DNA from: a virus
Length of the DNA stretch: 25,113 nt
Strand: one strand, 5' to 3'
Virus record (IMG/VR): IMGVR_UViG_3300018080_008435
Span: 1 to 25,113 of that record
The notes beneath the pieces were generated by a model. The model was given only the letters and a program-made list of their open reading frames with translations. It did not search any database and was not told where the DNA came from. A program made the position numbers and the translations under genes. This document shows positions 5,924 through 11,480 of the stretch, in pieces; within the stretch, counting starts at the first letter, position 1; the number at the start of each line of letters is the position of its first letter.

Positions 5924-5951
5924 TTGACAAAAACTGGCTATATGCTATTAT
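5924..5951 (+). promoter_or_regulatory. Sigma-70-type promoter
   Basis: A perfect -35 TTGACA (5924-5929) is followed after 16 nt by TATTAT (5946-5951), a 5/6 match to the -10 consensus. It lies just after the hydrolase stop codon, so transcription would start near 5958 and enter the folded leader and terminator. It is the best plus-strand promoter I found in the window. Confidence 0.6.
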
Positions 5952-5975
5952 AAAATTATGGTGATTAAAATTTGA

Positions 5976-6046
5976 TACACAAGATAGGGGAATAGGGTTA
6001 AGAAGTAAATCTTTTTAACCTTTGAAACCAATTTTGTGTAGGTCCC
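5976..6046 (+). promoter_or_regulatory. Folded leader between promoter and terminator
   Basis: Two nested helices are visible: TACACAA (5976-5982) with TTGTGTA (6034-6040), 7 bp, enclosing GGTTAAGAAG (5996-6005) with CTTTTTAACC (6011-6020), 10 bp with one G-T and a TAAAT loop. Between them lie purine-rich strands (GATAGGGGAATAG and TTTGAAACCAA). GTCCC at 6042-6046 can pair with GGGAC 6059-6063, the 5' part of the terminator stem, giving a weak alternative. It could be an attenuator or the body of a ~145-nt small RNA. No known riboswitch class recognised. Confidence 0.4.
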
Positions 6047-6058
6047 AGACAAAAGAAG

Positions 6059-6106
6059 GGGACACTTACTTGAAGAAGAAAAGTAGGTGTCCCTTTTTCT
6101 TTTTTT
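6059..6106 (+). terminator. Intrinsic terminator
   Basis: GGGACACTTACT (6059-6070) pairs with AGTAGGTGTCCC (6082-6093), 12 bp with one G-T, around an 11-nt purine loop, followed immediately by TTTTTCTTTTTTT. This is the strongest terminator in the window. It lies only about 20 nt before the next lipoprotein gene, so expression of that gene needs read-through. The palindrome could alternatively derive from a REP-like host repeat. Confidence 0.8.
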
Positions 6107-6126
6107 CCCCAGAAAGAGAGGTCGCA

Positions 6127-6303
6127 ATGAAAAAGCTGTTTTTCTTCGGATCACTCCTGATTTTATTCCTTGCCGGATGCACTACCACAGAAACAGGGCT
6201 TTTTTCGAATTCAATACTCCCGGATATTAATCTTCAAGTGAGAAGCATAGAAGATATTGATACTTTGGAATTGAAGGTTGATACTAAGGACTTTCAAAAG
6301 TAA
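6127..6303 (+). CDS. Small predicted lipoprotein, 58 aa
   Basis: A 58-residue protein starting MKKLFFFGSLLILFLAGC: a classic lipoprotein signal with lipobox LAGC and lipidated Cys at residue 18. The mature part is only about 40 residues and ends in a charged tail (LKVDTKDFQK). I chose ATG 6127, with GAGAGG six nt upstream; a longer in-frame reading from 6022 crosses the terminator hairpin and lacks sense. It is the third lipoprotein of this cluster and is cut off from upstream transcription by the terminator. Function unknown; small phage lipoproteins often act in lysis or superinfection exclusion. Confidence 0.6.
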   Translation: MKKLFFFGSLLILFLAGCTTTETGLFSNSILPDINLQVRSIEDIDTLELKVDTKDFQK

Positions 6304-6393
6304 AGGATGGTAAAGCCGCAACCAGGCGGGCTAGCCCTTACCATCTCCTTAAGTTATGGGCTTAAGGCGCTCTACTTGAGCTATAGTTGCGGT
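6296..6393 (-). ncRNA. tRNA-like structured RNA on the minus strand
   Basis: Read on the minus strand, a 77-nt cloverleaf is apparent. The acceptor-like helix is CCGCAACTA (6392-6384) with TGGTTGCGG (6324-6316), 9 bp with one U-G. Then come TA, a D-like arm GCTC/GAGC with loop AAGTA, one G, a 7-bp anticodon-like arm CCTTAAG/CTTAAGG with 7-nt loop CCCATAA (6360-6354; CAU at the anticodon place), a 4-nt variable region, and a T-like arm (6342-6325; GGT/GCC and GGG/CCC with an AA bulge). Spacers follow tRNA rules. Not a normal tRNA: U33 is C, the D-loop lacks GG, there is no TTC T-loop and no CCA. A promoter lies directly upstream and the 3' side is T-rich. The G-U pairs become C-A mismatches on the plus strand, favouring minus-strand RNA. 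Confidence 0.5.
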
Positions 6394-6399
6394 AGAGAT

Positions 6400-6427
6400 A
6401 TTATAACAAAAAACGAAGAATTAACAA
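6400..6427 (-). promoter_or_regulatory. Sigma-70-type promoter for the minus-strand RNA
   Basis: On the minus strand, TTGTTA (6427-6422) is followed after 16 nt by a perfect TATAAT (6405-6400). Transcription would start near 6393, exactly one base before the acceptor-like helix begins. This coincidence of start and RNA structure is the main support for a real minus-strand transcript in a window whose genes all run the other way. Confidence 0.55.
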
Positions 6428-6440
6428 TTGCATTTATGGG

Positions 6441-6469
6441 GTGCGTTATGATTTTGAATGGCAACGCAC
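6441..6469 (+). promoter_or_regulatory. Hairpin in the methyltransferase leader
   Basis: GTGCGTT (6441-6447) pairs perfectly with AACGCAC (6463-6469) around a 15-nt loop. The loop contains the upstream in-frame ATG at 6458, so this start would be partly occluded. No T-run follows. Possible translational control, seen only as an inverted repeat. Confidence 0.3.
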
Positions 6470-6476
6470 AATCCAA

Positions 6477-6554
6477 TTCAATGGCATAGCGAGAAAAGAA
6501 TGATATCAGAACTTCTTCAATGGCATAGCGAGAAAAGAATGATATCAGAACTTC
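6477..6554 (+). repeat. Perfect 39-bp tandem duplication across the methyltransferase start
   Basis: Two identical adjacent copies of a 39-bp unit occupy 6477-6515 and 6516-6554. Each contains the ribosome-site-like GAGAAAAGA and an ATG (6500 and 6539). The length is 13 codons, so both ATGs stay in one frame. Perfect identity points to a recent slip, or to an assembly artefact. Confidence 0.9.
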
Positions 6555-7822
6555 AGCTTGCTGAATATAATCCACGCCAGGCTTCCGAAAAAGATACCCG
6601 AGATTTAACTACTTCTTTACAAAAATTCTCCTTAGCAGCCCCCATTGTTATAAATAAGAATAATCGAGTAATAGGTGGACATTTCCGGCTTAATATTTTG
6701 AAGCAGAAAGGAGTAATTGAAGTAGATGTCCGGGTCCCTAATCGATTGCTTAATGAGCAAGAGGAAAAAGAGCTAAATTTACGCTTAAATAAGAATCTGG
6801 GAACTTGGAATTTTGATTTGCTTGCTAATTATGATGAAGTTGTTCTTAAAGATGTAGGATTTGATAGTGAAGAATTAGATAAGATTTTTGATTTAGATTT
6901 AAGTGAACCGGAGCAATTTAACCTACAAAAGGAGCTTGAAAGGCTTAAAATAGGGCAAATTCGGGTCCAAAAGGGAGATATTTGGGAATTAGGGCATCAT
7001 AGGCTAATGTGCGGCAGTTCGACAAATCCAGCGGATCTGTGCAAGCTTATAGGGGATCAGAGAATGGACTTTTGTTTTACAGATCCCCCTTATATTTTGG
7101 ATTATTTACATACCAAATACAAAGGGAAGCCAAATTGTAAGGGGTTTGGTTACCGGGCCAATAGGCGATATCTGGAAACAGATGAAGATCCTACCTTTGA
7201 AAAGTGGATCCCCCATATAGCTAAGCTTTTAAAAGAAAATGCAAATATTATGATTTTTGAGAATTGGAAAAATGTTATTCCCCTCTGGCAAGAGATGGAG
7301 AAACATTGGAAAATCAGGAATTTAGTCATTTGGCATTTATCTAATAGGGTTCAAGGATTCGCGGCAAAATATAAATTTTTTAATAAATATGATATAGCGA
7401 TGTTAGGGACCCAAGGAGAAACAGAGCTTAATTTGGAAAGCGAAGAAGAATTATTGCAGAACGAATTTGAAACAGCGCTTTATGCGACTGTGGGAAAACC
7501 CCATTGGGAATCTTATGGAAAAGGTAAAAAATATTGCCCAACTGATGTAACTACATTTAGAGCAAGTGACACAACCCATTCGGGACAAGGTATTATATTT
7601 GGAACGAAGCCCATCGAAGTCTTAATTCCTTATCTTAAGGTTTTGACAAAAAGGGGAGATAATGTAATTGAGCCATTTGGTGGGTCCGGATCAACCTTAA
7701 TTGCTTGTGAAAAGATGAAACGTAAATGTTTTGTAATGGAGCTAGTGCCAACCTATTGTGAAGTAATTATGGCAAGATGGAAGAAACTAACCGGACAGGA
7801 TGCAATAAAGATAAATGAGTAA
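6539..7822 (+). CDS. ParB-domain DNA methyltransferase (N4/N6 type)
   Basis: A 428-residue fusion from ATG 6539. Residues 1-60 are a ParB/Sulfiredoxin-like domain (LAEYNPRQAS, then VIGGHFRLNIL at about 44-54). From about 140 there is a DNA amino-methyltransferase: motif IV DPPY at 182-185 precedes the SAM-binding motif EPFGGSGST at about 379-387, the beta-class order. It would methylate adenine-N6 or cytosine-N4 in a specific site. No restriction enzyme is adjacent, so it is an orphan phage methylase, probably protecting phage DNA or marking it for control. In-frame ATGs at 6500 and 6458 add 13 or 27 residues; I prefer 6539 because the ParB homology begins there. It overlaps the small-terminase gene by 8 nt. 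Confidence 0.85.
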   Translation: MISELQLAEYNPRQASEKDTRDLTTSLQKFSLAAPIVINKNNRVIGGHFRLNILKQKGVIEVDVRVPNRLLNEQEEKELNLRLNKNLGTWNFDLLANYDEVVLKDVGFDSEELDKIFDLDLSEPEQFNLQKELERLKIGQIRVQKGDIWELGHHRLMCGSSTNPADLCKLIGDQRMDFCFTDPPYILDYLHTKYKGKPNCKGFGYRANRRYLETDEDPTFEKWIPHIAKLLKENANIMIFENWKNVIPLWQEMEKHWKIRNLVIWHLSNRVQGFAAKYKFFNKYDIAMLGTQGETELNLESEEELLQNEFETALYATVGKPHWESYGKGKKYCPTDVTTFRASDTTHSGQGIIFGTKPIEVLIPYLKVLTKRGDNVIEPFGGSGSTLIACEKMKRKCFVMELVPTYCEVIMARWKKLTGQDAIKINE

Positions 7823-8390
7823 AAAAGATACAGTTTTTACACAAAAAAATACTGTTCAATTAATTGAGTTGATTCAGCGCAAAGAATTGAACCCTCGTAA
7901 CTTAAGACGGAAAGAAAGATTGCAAGTAGTAGCTTTTCTACGAAATGAAGGTAAAAGCGGATATGAGATAGCTCGATTTTTAAATTTTTGCGATAAAACG
8001 ATTTGGAATGATATCAAACTTATCAAGAGAAACGCCGCTTATTTAGTAGATGAAATCTCAATTAAGAGGGTTGCAGGGGATCTGATTAGAGAAGCGGATG
8101 TTTTAATAAATAAAGCAAAAAATGGATTAGATTATACGTTGGCTTGGCGGATAAAATGCGATCTAATTGAAAAACTTCAATCGATGGGATTCGTTTATAA
8201 AGCCCCGGCCGAATTAAAACACTCTGGGGAAATCAAGGGGGTTGCAGAGCAGAAGATTTTTGCCCTTATAATCAACAAAAAAGATGAAGAAATTAATAAT
8301 CTTCTAACCAGCCGGCCATTGTTGCAACTGGAAAAGCCAAAAGAAGCAGGAGAAAAGGGTGACAACAGCGATTCAGGAAACGGTAGATAA
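7815..8390 (+). CDS. terS: Probable small terminase subunit
   Basis: A 191-residue protein with a helix-turn-helix-like region at about residues 35-65 (RLQVVAFLRNEGKSGYEIARFLNFCDKTIWNDIKLIK), followed by helices and a polar tail. Small terminase subunits bind the packaging site through such a motif and load the large subunit. The assignment rests on this motif plus position: its end overlaps the large terminase by 32 nt. No direct sequence family match is obvious to me. Confidence 0.65.
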   Translation: MSKKDTVFTQKNTVQLIELIQRKELNPRNLRRKERLQVVAFLRNEGKSGYEIARFLNFCDKTIWNDIKLIKRNAAYLVDEISIKRVAGDLIREADVLINKAKNGLDYTLAWRIKCDLIEKLQSMGFVYKAPAELKHSGEIKGVAEQKIFALIINKKDEEINNLLTSRPLLQLEKPKEAGEKGDNSDSGNGR

Positions 8391-10236
8391 ATTAAAATAT
8401 AAAGCAATAGCTAAAAAGTATCTTGATGAAGGCATAAAAAGTGAGCTTGCTTTAAAGAATCTATTATTAGCTCTTAAAGAGCCAAGGATATCAACTAAGG
8501 TGAATTGTGGCAAAAATCATAATTCGCCTTTTGCTTTTTTATATGATGTTTTAAGTGGCGCGGTGACAAAATTTATCGTTTGGGCTAACCGGTCAGGAAG
8601 CAAATCATACTTGGCCGGATTGATGACTTGGTTTCAATCTGGGAGTCACAATTTAACTGAAACTTGCATTTTAGGCGGTTCAGAAAGCCAGGCAGAGAAA
8701 TCATATAAAGCTATGAATGATTTCTGGCGGATTACAGATTTACAAGAGGATTACCTGCTTAAAGAACCGATGATAACCAAAACAATGTGGCAAAATGGAT
8801 CAGTGGCATCAATTTTAACCGCTTCCCAAAGAAGCGTCCGTGGGCCCCATCCGCAAAAGCTAATATTGGATGAGGTTGATGAAATGGATTATACCGTTTT
8901 TGAAGCTTCTTTAAGCCAGCCTCAAAGTAAGCATAATGTGCCGGCTTCGATTGGAATATTCTCTACCAATCATAATATCGATGGGACTATGGATAAAGCA
9001 TTAAGATTGGTAGAAAAACACGCATACAGGCTATACAAATGGTGTGTTTGGGAAGTTTTAGAAAGTTGTCGGGATTTTAGCTGTTCTACTTGTAAATTAA
9101 GCTCAATTTGTCCCGGGAAGCACATGAAAGAAGCAAATGGATATTATAAAATTCAGGATTTTATAGATAAGCTTTATCTGCTTTCTTGGGATTCTTTACA
9201 AAGAGAATGGCTTTGTGAAAAGATAGGCCGGGGAGATTTAGTCTATCAGCATCAATTTGATGAGGATTTGCATTTTATTAATTGGCCTTTTGATAAAAAC
9301 AAAGAGGTTTTTTTGTCTATTGATTGGGGTGGTGTTCATCCTTTCTCAATAGGGGTGTGGCAGAATTTCGAGGAGTGGGGCTGGGTTCGGGTTGATGAGG
9401 TATATAGAGGAAATACGACCAATCCTTTAATTATCAAAGAATGTAAAGAAAGACCTTGGTGGGAAAACATCAATTCAGGGGTAGCCGATCCATCAAGAGC
9501 AGATTTAAGAAAAGAATGGGAAGATAAGGGGATATCTATTTATCCAGCCGATAATGATGTGGACTCCGGGATTGAAGCGGTAAAAAACGCATTAAAGCCG
9601 GTTTTGGGGAATCCAAAGATATATTTTAATCGGATTTGTCTTGATACAAAAAGAGAATTTTTGTCTTATAAAATTAAGAATAAAAAAATTGTTAAGGAAA
9701 ACGACCACACTTGCGTTGCAGGAGATAGTTTAATTAATACAACAAGTGGAGATATCCCCATTAGGGATTTGGTAGGTAAAGAAGGTTATCTTTATGCTTA
9801 CAACGGAAATAGGATTTGCGCGGCTAAATTTAACGAAGTTAGAAAAACGGGGATACAAAAGGAAGTATGGAAGGTTACGTATACTGATGGGAAAAGCATA
9901 ATTGCAACTCCAGACCACCCTTTTATGCTTAGAAATGGCAATTATAGATGTGTGAAAGAATTGAAAGCTGGAGATAGTTTAATGCCATTTTATAAGCGTA
10001 TTGACCATTCAGAATCCCGGGTGCTTGTGAATCATAAAATAGCTCGGATTGAATTTTATGGGTATGAAGATGTCTATAATTTAACAGTCGAGAAATATCA
10101 TAATTTTGCTTGCCATGGAATTATCATACACAACTGCGATGAAATAAGGTATTTCGTCAAGTGGAAAATAAAAGAAGGAAAAGTATTTGCACTTACCACG
10201 GATGATGATGGTGATTTTGATGTTATGCCGAAATAG
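8359..10236 (+). CDS. terL: Large terminase subunit interrupted by a mini-intein
   Basis: A 625-residue precursor. Without the intein (residues 452-592) the mature protein is 484 residues, the usual large-terminase size. ATPase part: Walker A-like ANRSGSKS (76-83), Walker B LILDE (168-172), coupling-type FSTNHN (201-206). A four-Cys cluster at 237-251 may bind zinc. RNase-H-like nuclease: Asp322 in SIDWG, Glu347 in VDEVYRG, Asp377 in ADPSR, and the last motif NDHT-CDEIRY, which is re-formed only by splicing. It powers DNA packaging at the portal and cuts concatemers. Start is GTG 8359 with AGGAG six nt upstream. Deviation: the Walker A is the RSGSKS variant rather than GxxxxGKS. Confidence 0.92.
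   Translation: MTTAIQETVDKLKYKAIAKKYLDEGIKSELALKNLLLALKEPRISTKVNCGKNHNSPFAFLYDVLSGAVTKFIVWANRSGSKSYLAGLMTWFQSGSHNLTETCILGGSESQAEKSYKAMNDFWRITDLQEDYLLKEPMITKTMWQNGSVASILTASQRSVRGPHPQKLILDEVDEMDYTVFEASLSQPQSKHNVPASIGIFSTNHNIDGTMDKALRLVEKHAYRLYKWCVWEVLESCRDFSCSTCKLSSICPGKHMKEANGYYKIQDFIDKLYLLSWDSLQREWLCEKIGRGDLVYQHQFDEDLHFINWPFDKNKEVFLSIDWGGVHPFSIGVWQNFEEWGWVRVDEVYRGNTTNPLIIKECKERPWWENINSGVADPSRADLRKEWEDKGISIYPADNDVDSGIEAVKNALKPVLGNPKIYFNRICLDTKREFLSYKIKNKKIVKENDHTCVAGDSLINTTSGDIPIRDLVGKEGYLYAYNGNRICAAKFNEVRKTGIQKEVWKVTYTDGKSIIATPDHPFMLRNGNYRCVKELKAGDSLMPFYKRIDHSESRVLVNHKIARIEFYGYEDVYNLTVEKYHNFACHGIIIHNCDEIRYFVKWKIKEGKVFALTTDDDGDFDVMPK
9712..10134 (+). other. Mini-intein in the large terminase
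   Basis: A 141-residue in-frame protein intron. It starts with Cys452 in block A (CVAGDSLINT), has block B with TPDHP (His520), block F (VYNLTVEKYHNF) and block G GIIIHN, with His591-Asn592 followed by Cys593 as the +1 nucleophile. All class 1 splicing residues are in place. There is no room for a homing endonuclease and no LAGLIDADG or HNH motif, so it is immobile by itself. It sits within the conserved DHxxD/E...RY nuclease motif of the host protein. Confidence 0.93.
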
Positions 10237-10838: not shown

Positions 10839-11480
10839 ATGGCTAATTATCGCGTTCCTGTTTTAGAACATTTCAGTTGGCAGCCGTCTGTAAAGGATCG
10901 AACTAATACGCCGCCTGGGGTTCCAGCAAAGGGAGACCGTTATTTAGTGACTTCTGTGGCTGATGGAGACTGGACAGGGCATGAGAATGATATTGCTTAT
11001 TGTTCTAATGCGAGTGGTCCTGTTTGGTCTTTTGATAGTCCAATGGAAGGGATGATAGTCTGGGTTGATGATGAGAACAAGTATTACAACTTCGATGGTT
11101 CATCTTGGTCAGAATATCTGGGGCAAGCAGGACCTACGGGACCGACAGGACCCACTGGGTCGGCAGGTGCAACTGGACCAACAGGGCCAACGGGCGCCGC
11201 AGGACCAACAGGAGCGGCTGGTCCTACGGGATCTGCCGGAGCCACGGGGCCGACTGGTCCCACCGGAGCTTCAGGAGCCACAGGGCCGGCAGGAGATACA
11301 GGGCCGGCTGGGCCTACTGGATCCGCTGGACCGACCGGTGCCGCCGGGCCGACTGGTTCGGCAGGACCTACGGGGCCCACGGGTTCCGCAGGTGCAACTG
11401 GACCAACAGGACCAACAGGACCGACCGGGCCAGGGGCAAGCTATGATTCTGATTATGGATGCTTGATTATAAGTGGTTAA
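10839..11480 (+). CDS. Collagen-like surface protein with DUF2793-type N-terminus
   Basis: A 213-residue protein in two parts. Residues 1-94 are a DUF2793-like domain ([36 protein letters not shown]), shared with the gene at 13003. Residues 98-199 are 34 unbroken Gly-x-y triplets, about half GPT, with Thr in the third position in about 22. A short tail with one Cys ends the protein and there is no obvious trimerisation domain. It should form a triple-helical fibre on the virion. GPT repeats of Bacillus BclA are O-glycosylated on Thr, and here a methyltransferase and glycosyltransferase follow directly. The repeat DNA is much more GC-rich than its surroundings. Confidence 0.8.
11130..11435 (+). 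repeat. Collagen triplet repeat (34 Gly-x-y units)
   Basis: Thirty-four nine-base units each encoding Gly-x-y, mostly GPT with GSA, GAT, GAA, GPA, GAS and GDT interspersed, ending in GPG. Codons vary between units, so this is not a fresh slippage product. Opposite-strand and shifted open frames across it are artefacts of the repeat. Confidence 0.95.

Follow-up and report, generated by a model that had tools for sequence, protein, structure and literature searches.

Gene context of the element

The window, meaning the whole analyzed stretch of 25,113 nucleotides (nt) from IMG/VR virus record IMGVR_UViG_3300018080_008435, carries a putative small RNA gene on its minus strand, placed just before a DNA methyltransferase gene on the plus strand. 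The plus-strand features around this element are:

5924-5951, plus: probable upstream promoter TTGACA-16-TATTAT, 11/12 matches, extended -10
5924-6107, plus: leader and strong terminator hairpin (6059-6071 with 6081-6093, plus T tract), from the sequence
6428-6464, plus: predicted leader hairpin, TTGCATTT (6428-6435) with GAATGGCAA (6456-6464)
6434-6440, plus: putative target site UUAUGGG in the leader of the methyltransferase mRNA; it overlaps the Shine-Dalgarno sequence GGGGTG (6438-6443)
6458-7822, plus: ParB-like/N6_N4 DNA methyltransferase, the probable regulated gene (Pfam N6_N4_Mtase; ParB-like N-terminal part by PHROGs)
7815-8390, plus: HTH/small-terminase-like protein, downstream of the methyltransferase
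8359-10236, plus: large terminase, downstream of the methyltransferase

In the window and in two related viral contigs, L002 and L003, the methyltransferase gene is followed by one further gene and then by the large terminase. The large terminases belong to different families, phrog_2 in the window and phrog_38 in L002 and L003. A strong plus-strand promoter with 11 of 12 matches lies upstream, at an equivalent place, in both the window and L003, and a terminator hairpin precedes the element in all three, an arrangement like that of a late-operon leader. The terminator of the window has a 13-bp stem and a long T tract, and the leader is about 100 nt long; the stretch is possibly a separate small RNA or a late-operon attenuator. 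A small lipoprotein-like open reading frame (ORF; 6127-6303) lies between terminator and element in the window, and a further plus-strand promoter, TTGAGC-17-TATTAT, falls inside the element.

The methyltransferase leader has a possible 8-bp hairpin. Its 3′ strand would contain the methyltransferase AUG (6458-6460), and its loop would contain the Shine-Dalgarno sequence together with another AUG (6448-6450). The stem is possible in L002 and L003 too, where both sides of one pair have changed, and its 5′ strand TTGCATTT is conserved (the L003 version is ATGCATTT). The fold model thus suggests that the start codon can be buried. The second AUG is out of frame and lies 10 to 11 nt before the methyltransferase AUG (10 in the window, 11 in L002 and L003). 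The Shine-Dalgarno sequence, 14 nt from the methyltransferase AUG and well spaced for the out-of-frame AUG between them, could serve either. Translational coupling, known for icd and ant of P1, may also operate here.

Three further features of the window were seen in passing. Near the 5′ end of the methyltransferase gene (6480-6557), about 39 bp (AATGGCATAGCGAGAAAAGAATGATATCAGAACTTC) are duplicated in tandem, which doubles QWHSEKRMISEL; homologues have at most one copy of this unit. The large terminase frame contains an apparent intein (CVAGDSLINTTSGDIPIRDLV... to ...HNC) with a split nuclease part. Positions 10839-11480 encode a collagen-like GPTGPTG repeat protein.

A predicted structured RNA with its own promoter

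The element is laid out on the minus strand as follows, in 5′ to 3′ order of the RNA:

6400-6427, minus: sigma-70-type small-RNA promoter (-35 TTGTTA at 6427-6422, 16 nt, extended -10 TG-n-TATAAT at 6405-6400)
6384-6392, minus: 5′ strand CCGCAACTA of the 9-bp acceptor-like stem P1, pairing with 6316-6324
6369-6381, minus: D-arm-like hairpin GCTC-AAGTA-GAGC, preceded by UA (6383-6382)
6347-6367, minus: anticodon-arm-like hairpin with a 7-bp stem, five pairs changed on both sides
6354-6360, minus: 7-nt anticodon-like seed loop CCCAUAA, complementary to the Shine-Dalgarno region 6434-6440
6338-6345, minus: 5′ strand GATGGTAA of the pseudoknot helix P4, pairing with 6306-6313
6328-6337, minus: T-arm-like hairpin GGGCUAGCCC, a self-complementary 10-mer, from alignment and sequence
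6316-6324, minus: 3′ strand TGGTTGCGG of P1, partner of 6384-6392
6306-6313, minus: 3′ strand TTACCATC of P4, just beyond the acceptor-like stem
6295-6305, minus: U-rich end CUUUACUUUUG, the probable RNA terminus, from the sequence

An earlier sequence-only reading of this DNA had described a promoter-driven, tRNA-like structured RNA on the minus strand, and both the promoter and the fold are borne out in three lineages. The minus-strand TTGTTA-16-TATAAT is present with 10 of 12 matches and an extended -10 TG, and an extended -10 promoter occupies the equivalent location in L002 (TTGCCA-17-TAAGAT) and L003 (TTGCCC-17-TAAAAT). The cloverleaf begins 7 nt past TATAAT, and the predicted RNA start, A6393, lies at the base of the acceptor-like stem. 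No formal terminator for the small RNA was called in the window. A U-rich stretch occurs at the equivalent position in L002 and L003 as well, and we infer that the RNA terminates there, just 3′ of P4, which would make it about 100 nt long. We also considered reading the element as a terminator: in L003 the P1 3′ strand takes part in a hairpin with a T run behind it, but L002 has no such arrangement, so this reading is not general.

Folding of the window sequence gives the 77-nt cloverleaf (6392-6316, minus) as the minimum-energy structure, at -29.9 kcal/mol (z = -2.4); among 200 shuffled sequences, 4 gave an equally good fold. The plus strand over the same interval reaches -28.1 kcal/mol (z = -1.6). 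Single-sequence folding is only moderately better than chance and is suggestive only; we take the fold as real because of compensatory changes in homologues.

Close homologues of the methyltransferase are found on three viral contigs (L002, L004, and L003; 75% and 66% identical in alignment A1), each with the element directly upstream of the methyltransferase gene on the opposite strand. L002 and L004 are identical over the stretch read. The family is counted as three independent lineages (window; L002/L004; L003) on four contigs, with one copy each. In alignment A3, all 23 cloverleaf pairs are standard in all three lineages (68/68 cells paired), and 12 of the 23 are changed on both sides; none of 500 shuffles did as well. 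Sliding the partner strands in A3 gave only 31 to 55% pairing. Helix lengths are conserved among the lineages, 7 of the 9 P1 pairs are changed on both sides, and the D-arm region TAGCTYAAGTAGAGCG is near-invariant in all three. The sequence-only reading had called for covariance across related phage contigs and would have given way had homologues lost the pairings without compensation. They keep them, which favors the structure, and its 77-nt cloverleaf with a 9-bp acceptor stem can be regarded as real.

The plain cloverleaf is nonetheless incomplete. All of its pairs hold, but it missed P4, a helix of 7 to 8 bp that every lineage has and in which 3 of 8 pairs show changes on both sides (shuffle chances, counting Watson-Crick pairs only, of 0.0042, 0.0018, and 0.0015). 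Because P4 crosses the acceptor-like stem, the overall fold is a pseudoknot. An HDV-like ribozyme, suggested by a similar P1/P4 strand order, was rejected: Rfam gives no match, and the linker before the P4 3′ strand has no catalytic segment of the known kind. The T-like hairpin is palindromic in L002 too (GGGUCGACCC) and contains a G·U in L003 (AGGUCGGCCU); the 10-nt palindrome is possibly an RNA dimer contact.

Judging from A3, the minus RNA is the molecule under selection, because its four G-U cells (position 12 in the window, 11 in L002, and 11 and 19 in L003) would all be A-C mismatches on the plus strand. They occur on the minus strand only, as had been proposed from the window alone.

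The family appears to be small. Viral-contig scans with five patterns (D-arm; 5′ end and D-arm; D-arm and P4; P4 and T-like hairpin; leader motif) recovered nothing beyond the same contigs except hits in coding sequence or in tRNAs. Scanning genome contigs for the D-arm pattern added no family members, nor did methyltransferase profile and covariance model searches, and there was no DNA match among phage records. The RNA is absent from methyltransferase homologues of 58% identity or less, among those whose upstream region was examined. The RNA and the special leader motif co-occur on exactly the same contigs and on no others.

The anticodon-like loop matches the methyltransferase Shine-Dalgarno region

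The seed loop of each lineage is complementary to its own methyltransferase leader. In the window, CCCAUAA matches UUAUGGG (6434-6440) over all 7 nt; in L002, CUCACAA fully matches UUGUGAG; and in L003, CCUCGAA matches UUCGGGG with one G-U. The target lies at an equivalent location in all the phages, 4 nt past the first base of a conserved GCATTT and 17 to 19 nt before the methyltransferase AUG. Four loop bases (positions 33 to 36) vary among the phages, and the bases around the Shine-Dalgarno sequence vary likewise; no loop fits the leader of another phage. The loop therefore shows what is expected of a Shine-Dalgarno–occluding small RNA: an unpaired seed that is complementary to the Shine-Dalgarno region and covaries with it.

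The chance of finding a loop site anywhere in a shuffled leader was 0.0043, 0.0031, and 0.0123 for the window, L002, and L003, respectively; the product of the three is 1.6 × 10−7, which ignores the coincidence of the site in all three. Note that these chances are post hoc, because the match was spotted by reading and then tested, and that an exhaustive scan is the fairer control. When all 6- and 7-nt segments of the RNA were compared with all leader offsets, the single contact common to all three lineages was that between loop and Shine-Dalgarno; the same scan revealed no second conserved RNA-leader contact. A stricter null, which permits G-U and holds C32, A37, A38, and the site constant, still puts the joint chance at 3 × 10−5.

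The target (6434-6440) lies outside the RNA gene, upstream of the RNA promoter, and the match is thus not a by-product of antisense overlap. This refines the earlier proposal of an RNA antisense to the methyltransferase leader: an antisense regulator is probable, but the conserved contact is a separate 7-nt Shine-Dalgarno site and not the overlap. The loop-target duplex has 7 bp and a predicted energy of -7 to -8 kcal/mol, and would count as short unless a helper protein or a further contact assisted it. The leader site itself is predicted to be partly paired, and mostly paired in L002 and L003. Read on the plus strand, loop and target form a direct repeat, with TTATGGG at 6354 and again at 6434. 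The two L003 copies show a single-base difference, one that G-U pairing in the minus RNA would accommodate.

Resemblance to tRNA

The element resembles tRNA (RF00005) in its UA spacer, its GCUC/GAGC D-stem, and its 7-nt loop with C32, A37, and A38, loop positions that are conserved across the lineages. It differs in that the T-loop, the D-loop GG, and CCA are missing, as had been noted before. In A3, the D-loop reads AAGUA, the T-like loop has 4 nt, and the anticodon-like stem has 7 bp where tRNA has 5; the acceptor-like stem has 9 bp, and the 3′ end is held in a pseudoknot. ARAGORN found no tRNA in the window, Rfam at the gathering threshold found nothing there, and RF00005 did not recognize the element at E ≤ 10. 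A remodelled tRNA, which the sequence-only reading had offered as an alternative, finds no support in these searches. Below threshold, the top Rfam hit was Flavi_NKV_xrRNA, whose score of 13.5 bits (cut-off, 50; E = 3) is attributable to chance.

The 16-mer TAGCTYAAGTAGAGCG occurs also in real tRNAs and tRNA-like RNAs. Searches with R1, a covariance model built on the element whose E-values are rough, matched tRNAs among loci that had been preselected by a tRNA-like pattern, whereas its hits in six whole genomes were not tRNAs. For these reasons descent from tRNA is unproven. By its sequence, the element looks tRNA-like without being a tRNA, and such a descent is possible.

A separate, conserved tRNA-like RNA was noticed in Clostridia (L024, L041, L042, L063-L065, and about 19 other genome loci; e.g., L041:206-268, plus strand). 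Its 25 aligned loci have the TAGCTTAAGTAGAGCG D-arm as in the element, a reduced anticodon arm, and a T-like arm, and it lies just upstream of a small zinc-ribbon protein gene (MYEDKTLICKECG...) on the same strand. Rfam tRNA scores were 30 to 37 bits in three tested, and ARAGORN called none of two tested. The RNA resembles a 5′ leader that mimics tRNA.

Proposed function and alternatives

We propose, with a probability of roughly 0.7, that the element is a phage antisense RNA gene whose pseudoknotted product masks the ribosome-binding site of the methyltransferase. The comparison shows the fold, strand, promoter, gene linkage, and loop/target covariation; from these we infer transcription, pairing, repression, timing, and an effect on the terminase genes. 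The minus-strand gene would be transcribed into a tRNA-shaped, pseudoknotted antisense RNA of about 100 nt. Its scaffold, comprising the 9-bp acceptor-like stem, the D-arm-like and T-like hairpins, and a second helix holding the 3′ end in place, would present the anticodon-like loop, keeping these 7 nt exposed and both RNA ends protected. Pairing of the loop with the Shine-Dalgarno region of the methyltransferase leader would block 30S binding and lower methyltransferase translation, and perhaps, by coupling, that of the terminase genes behind it.

Loop-to-mRNA pairing leaves the invariant D-arm unexplained, and its near-invariance suggests a further partner. A broader scheme, possible although we hold it only tentatively, would make the element a phage-remodelled tRNA: the anticodon loop reads a Shine-Dalgarno sequence, the pseudoknot replaces the T half, the D-arm recruits a host tRNA-handling factor, and lineages re-tune loop and target together, giving private, interchangeable specificities.

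Other readings explain parts of the same evidence. If methyltransferase mRNA is made by read-through, as the upstream plus promoters (window, L003) and the terminator just before the element suggest, its 5′ leader would overlap the RNA over 6295-6393. Full complementarity across the overlap is automatic, and as for ColE1 RNA I, kissing followed by a duplex could lead to RNase III cleavage or attenuation. Such cis-antisense control is unlikely, as it leaves the second-site loop match at the Shine-Dalgarno region unexplained in all three lineages, its duplex region lies at least 60 nt from the start codon, and a rigid pseudoknot would be an unusual form for such an RNA; transcription from the plus promoter inside the element would leave no overlap at all. 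The conserved D-arm TAGCTYAAGTAGAGCG and C32, A37, and A38 could instead point to a trans-acting tRNA mimic or decoy that binds a protein (a tRNA-processing enzyme, a synthetase, or an anticodon nuclease), with the Shine-Dalgarno match incidental. We find this decidedly unlikely: the variable loop positions change together with the Shine-Dalgarno region, tRNA models fail to recognize the element, and T-loop, D-loop GG, and CCA are missing.

The TTATGGG repeats raise the question of whether the plus strand is the functional one, the leader's second Shine-Dalgarno 7-mer being a decoy site for the ribosome or a repressor. This seems improbable given that the G-U pairs exist solely in the minus RNA, that the L003 repeats differ exactly where such a pair permits, and that promoter and U-rich end indicate the minus strand. 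Position alone, two genes before the large terminase with the order RNA, methyltransferase, next gene, large terminase in all three, would fit a packaging RNA similar to phi29 pRNA. We give this very little weight, since the same RNA accompanies terminases of phrog_2 (window) and phrog_38 (L002/L003) and its loop matches the Shine-Dalgarno region. Least probable, to the point of being negligible, is a decayed tRNA gene or a chance fold: the single-sequence z is just -2.4, yet compensatory changes run throughout, helix lengths are conserved, and tRNA searches are negative. Coding readings (ORFs 6307-6489, plus, and 6381-6575, minus) were also set aside, as the helices account for the conservation.

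Relation to known regulatory RNAs

ColE1 RNA I, an antisense RNA of about 100 nt with tRNA-like loops, had been suggested as precedent for the element. It acts on the overlapping RNA II and not on a Shine-Dalgarno sequence. In lambda aQ and P22 sar, pairing likewise extends across the stretch where the two genes overlap, whereas the conserved contact of the element is a separate site. Lambda aQ is an example of phage-encoded antisense control of a phage gene (PMC12197685), and P22 sar is named as a phage antisense RNA in titles among the references of that article.

C4 of phages P1 and P7 is a nearer precedent than ColE1 RNA I, because the conserved contact of the element is a separate Shine-Dalgarno site and lies outside the overlapping stretch. 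C4 is a small structured phage RNA (about 77 nt when mature) with variable loops on a conserved scaffold, and its loop b′ partly covers the ribosome-binding site of a neighboring gene (PMC5320573; PMC12197685). The element shares with C4 (RF01695) a hairpin loop that is complementary to, and predicted to occlude, the ribosome-binding site of the adjacent phage gene. According to the phage P1 annotation, the C4 target sites a2 and b2 are 7 and 8 nt long, and C4 is on the plus strand with icd and ant. C4 and its targets thus share one strand and one transcript, whereas the element (minus) faces the methyltransferase (plus) from the opposite strand and has its own promoter. C4 also has three stems and two contacts, with icd and ant as targets; the element has a tRNA-like pseudoknot and one conserved contact, before a methyltransferase. 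The C4 precursor is described as an RNase P substrate (PMC5320573, citing Hartmann et al. 1995); here, the predicted start A6393 adjoins the acceptor-like stem, so 5′ processing may be unneeded. At E ≤ 10, RF01695 matched none of the four records, while C4 of phage P1 itself scores 68.8 bits and membership is set at a covariance model match above 45 bits. By analogy, the element would work like C4 while standing outside the RF01695 family.

A second parallel lies in small RNAs with C-rich loops (Staphylococcus aureus RNAIII and related RNAs; E. coli CyaR), in which a loop complementary to the G-rich Shine-Dalgarno sequence masks the ribosome-binding site (PMC2837412). As in the element, a hairpin loop is directed against a Shine-Dalgarno sequence; these RNAs differ in being trans-encoded with several targets. 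To our knowledge, none of them has a tRNA-like scaffold.

Phage antisense RNAs for which both fold and target are defined are few, and a wider class with C4 as its possible prototype has been suggested (PMC12197685). If our reading is correct, the element would be an RNA unrelated to C4 that works in a similar way, placed before a methyltransferase-terminase gene set. The three loop/Shine-Dalgarno pairs form a ready-made swap set, and the RNA would be a compact scaffold whose target is set by a 7-nt loop.
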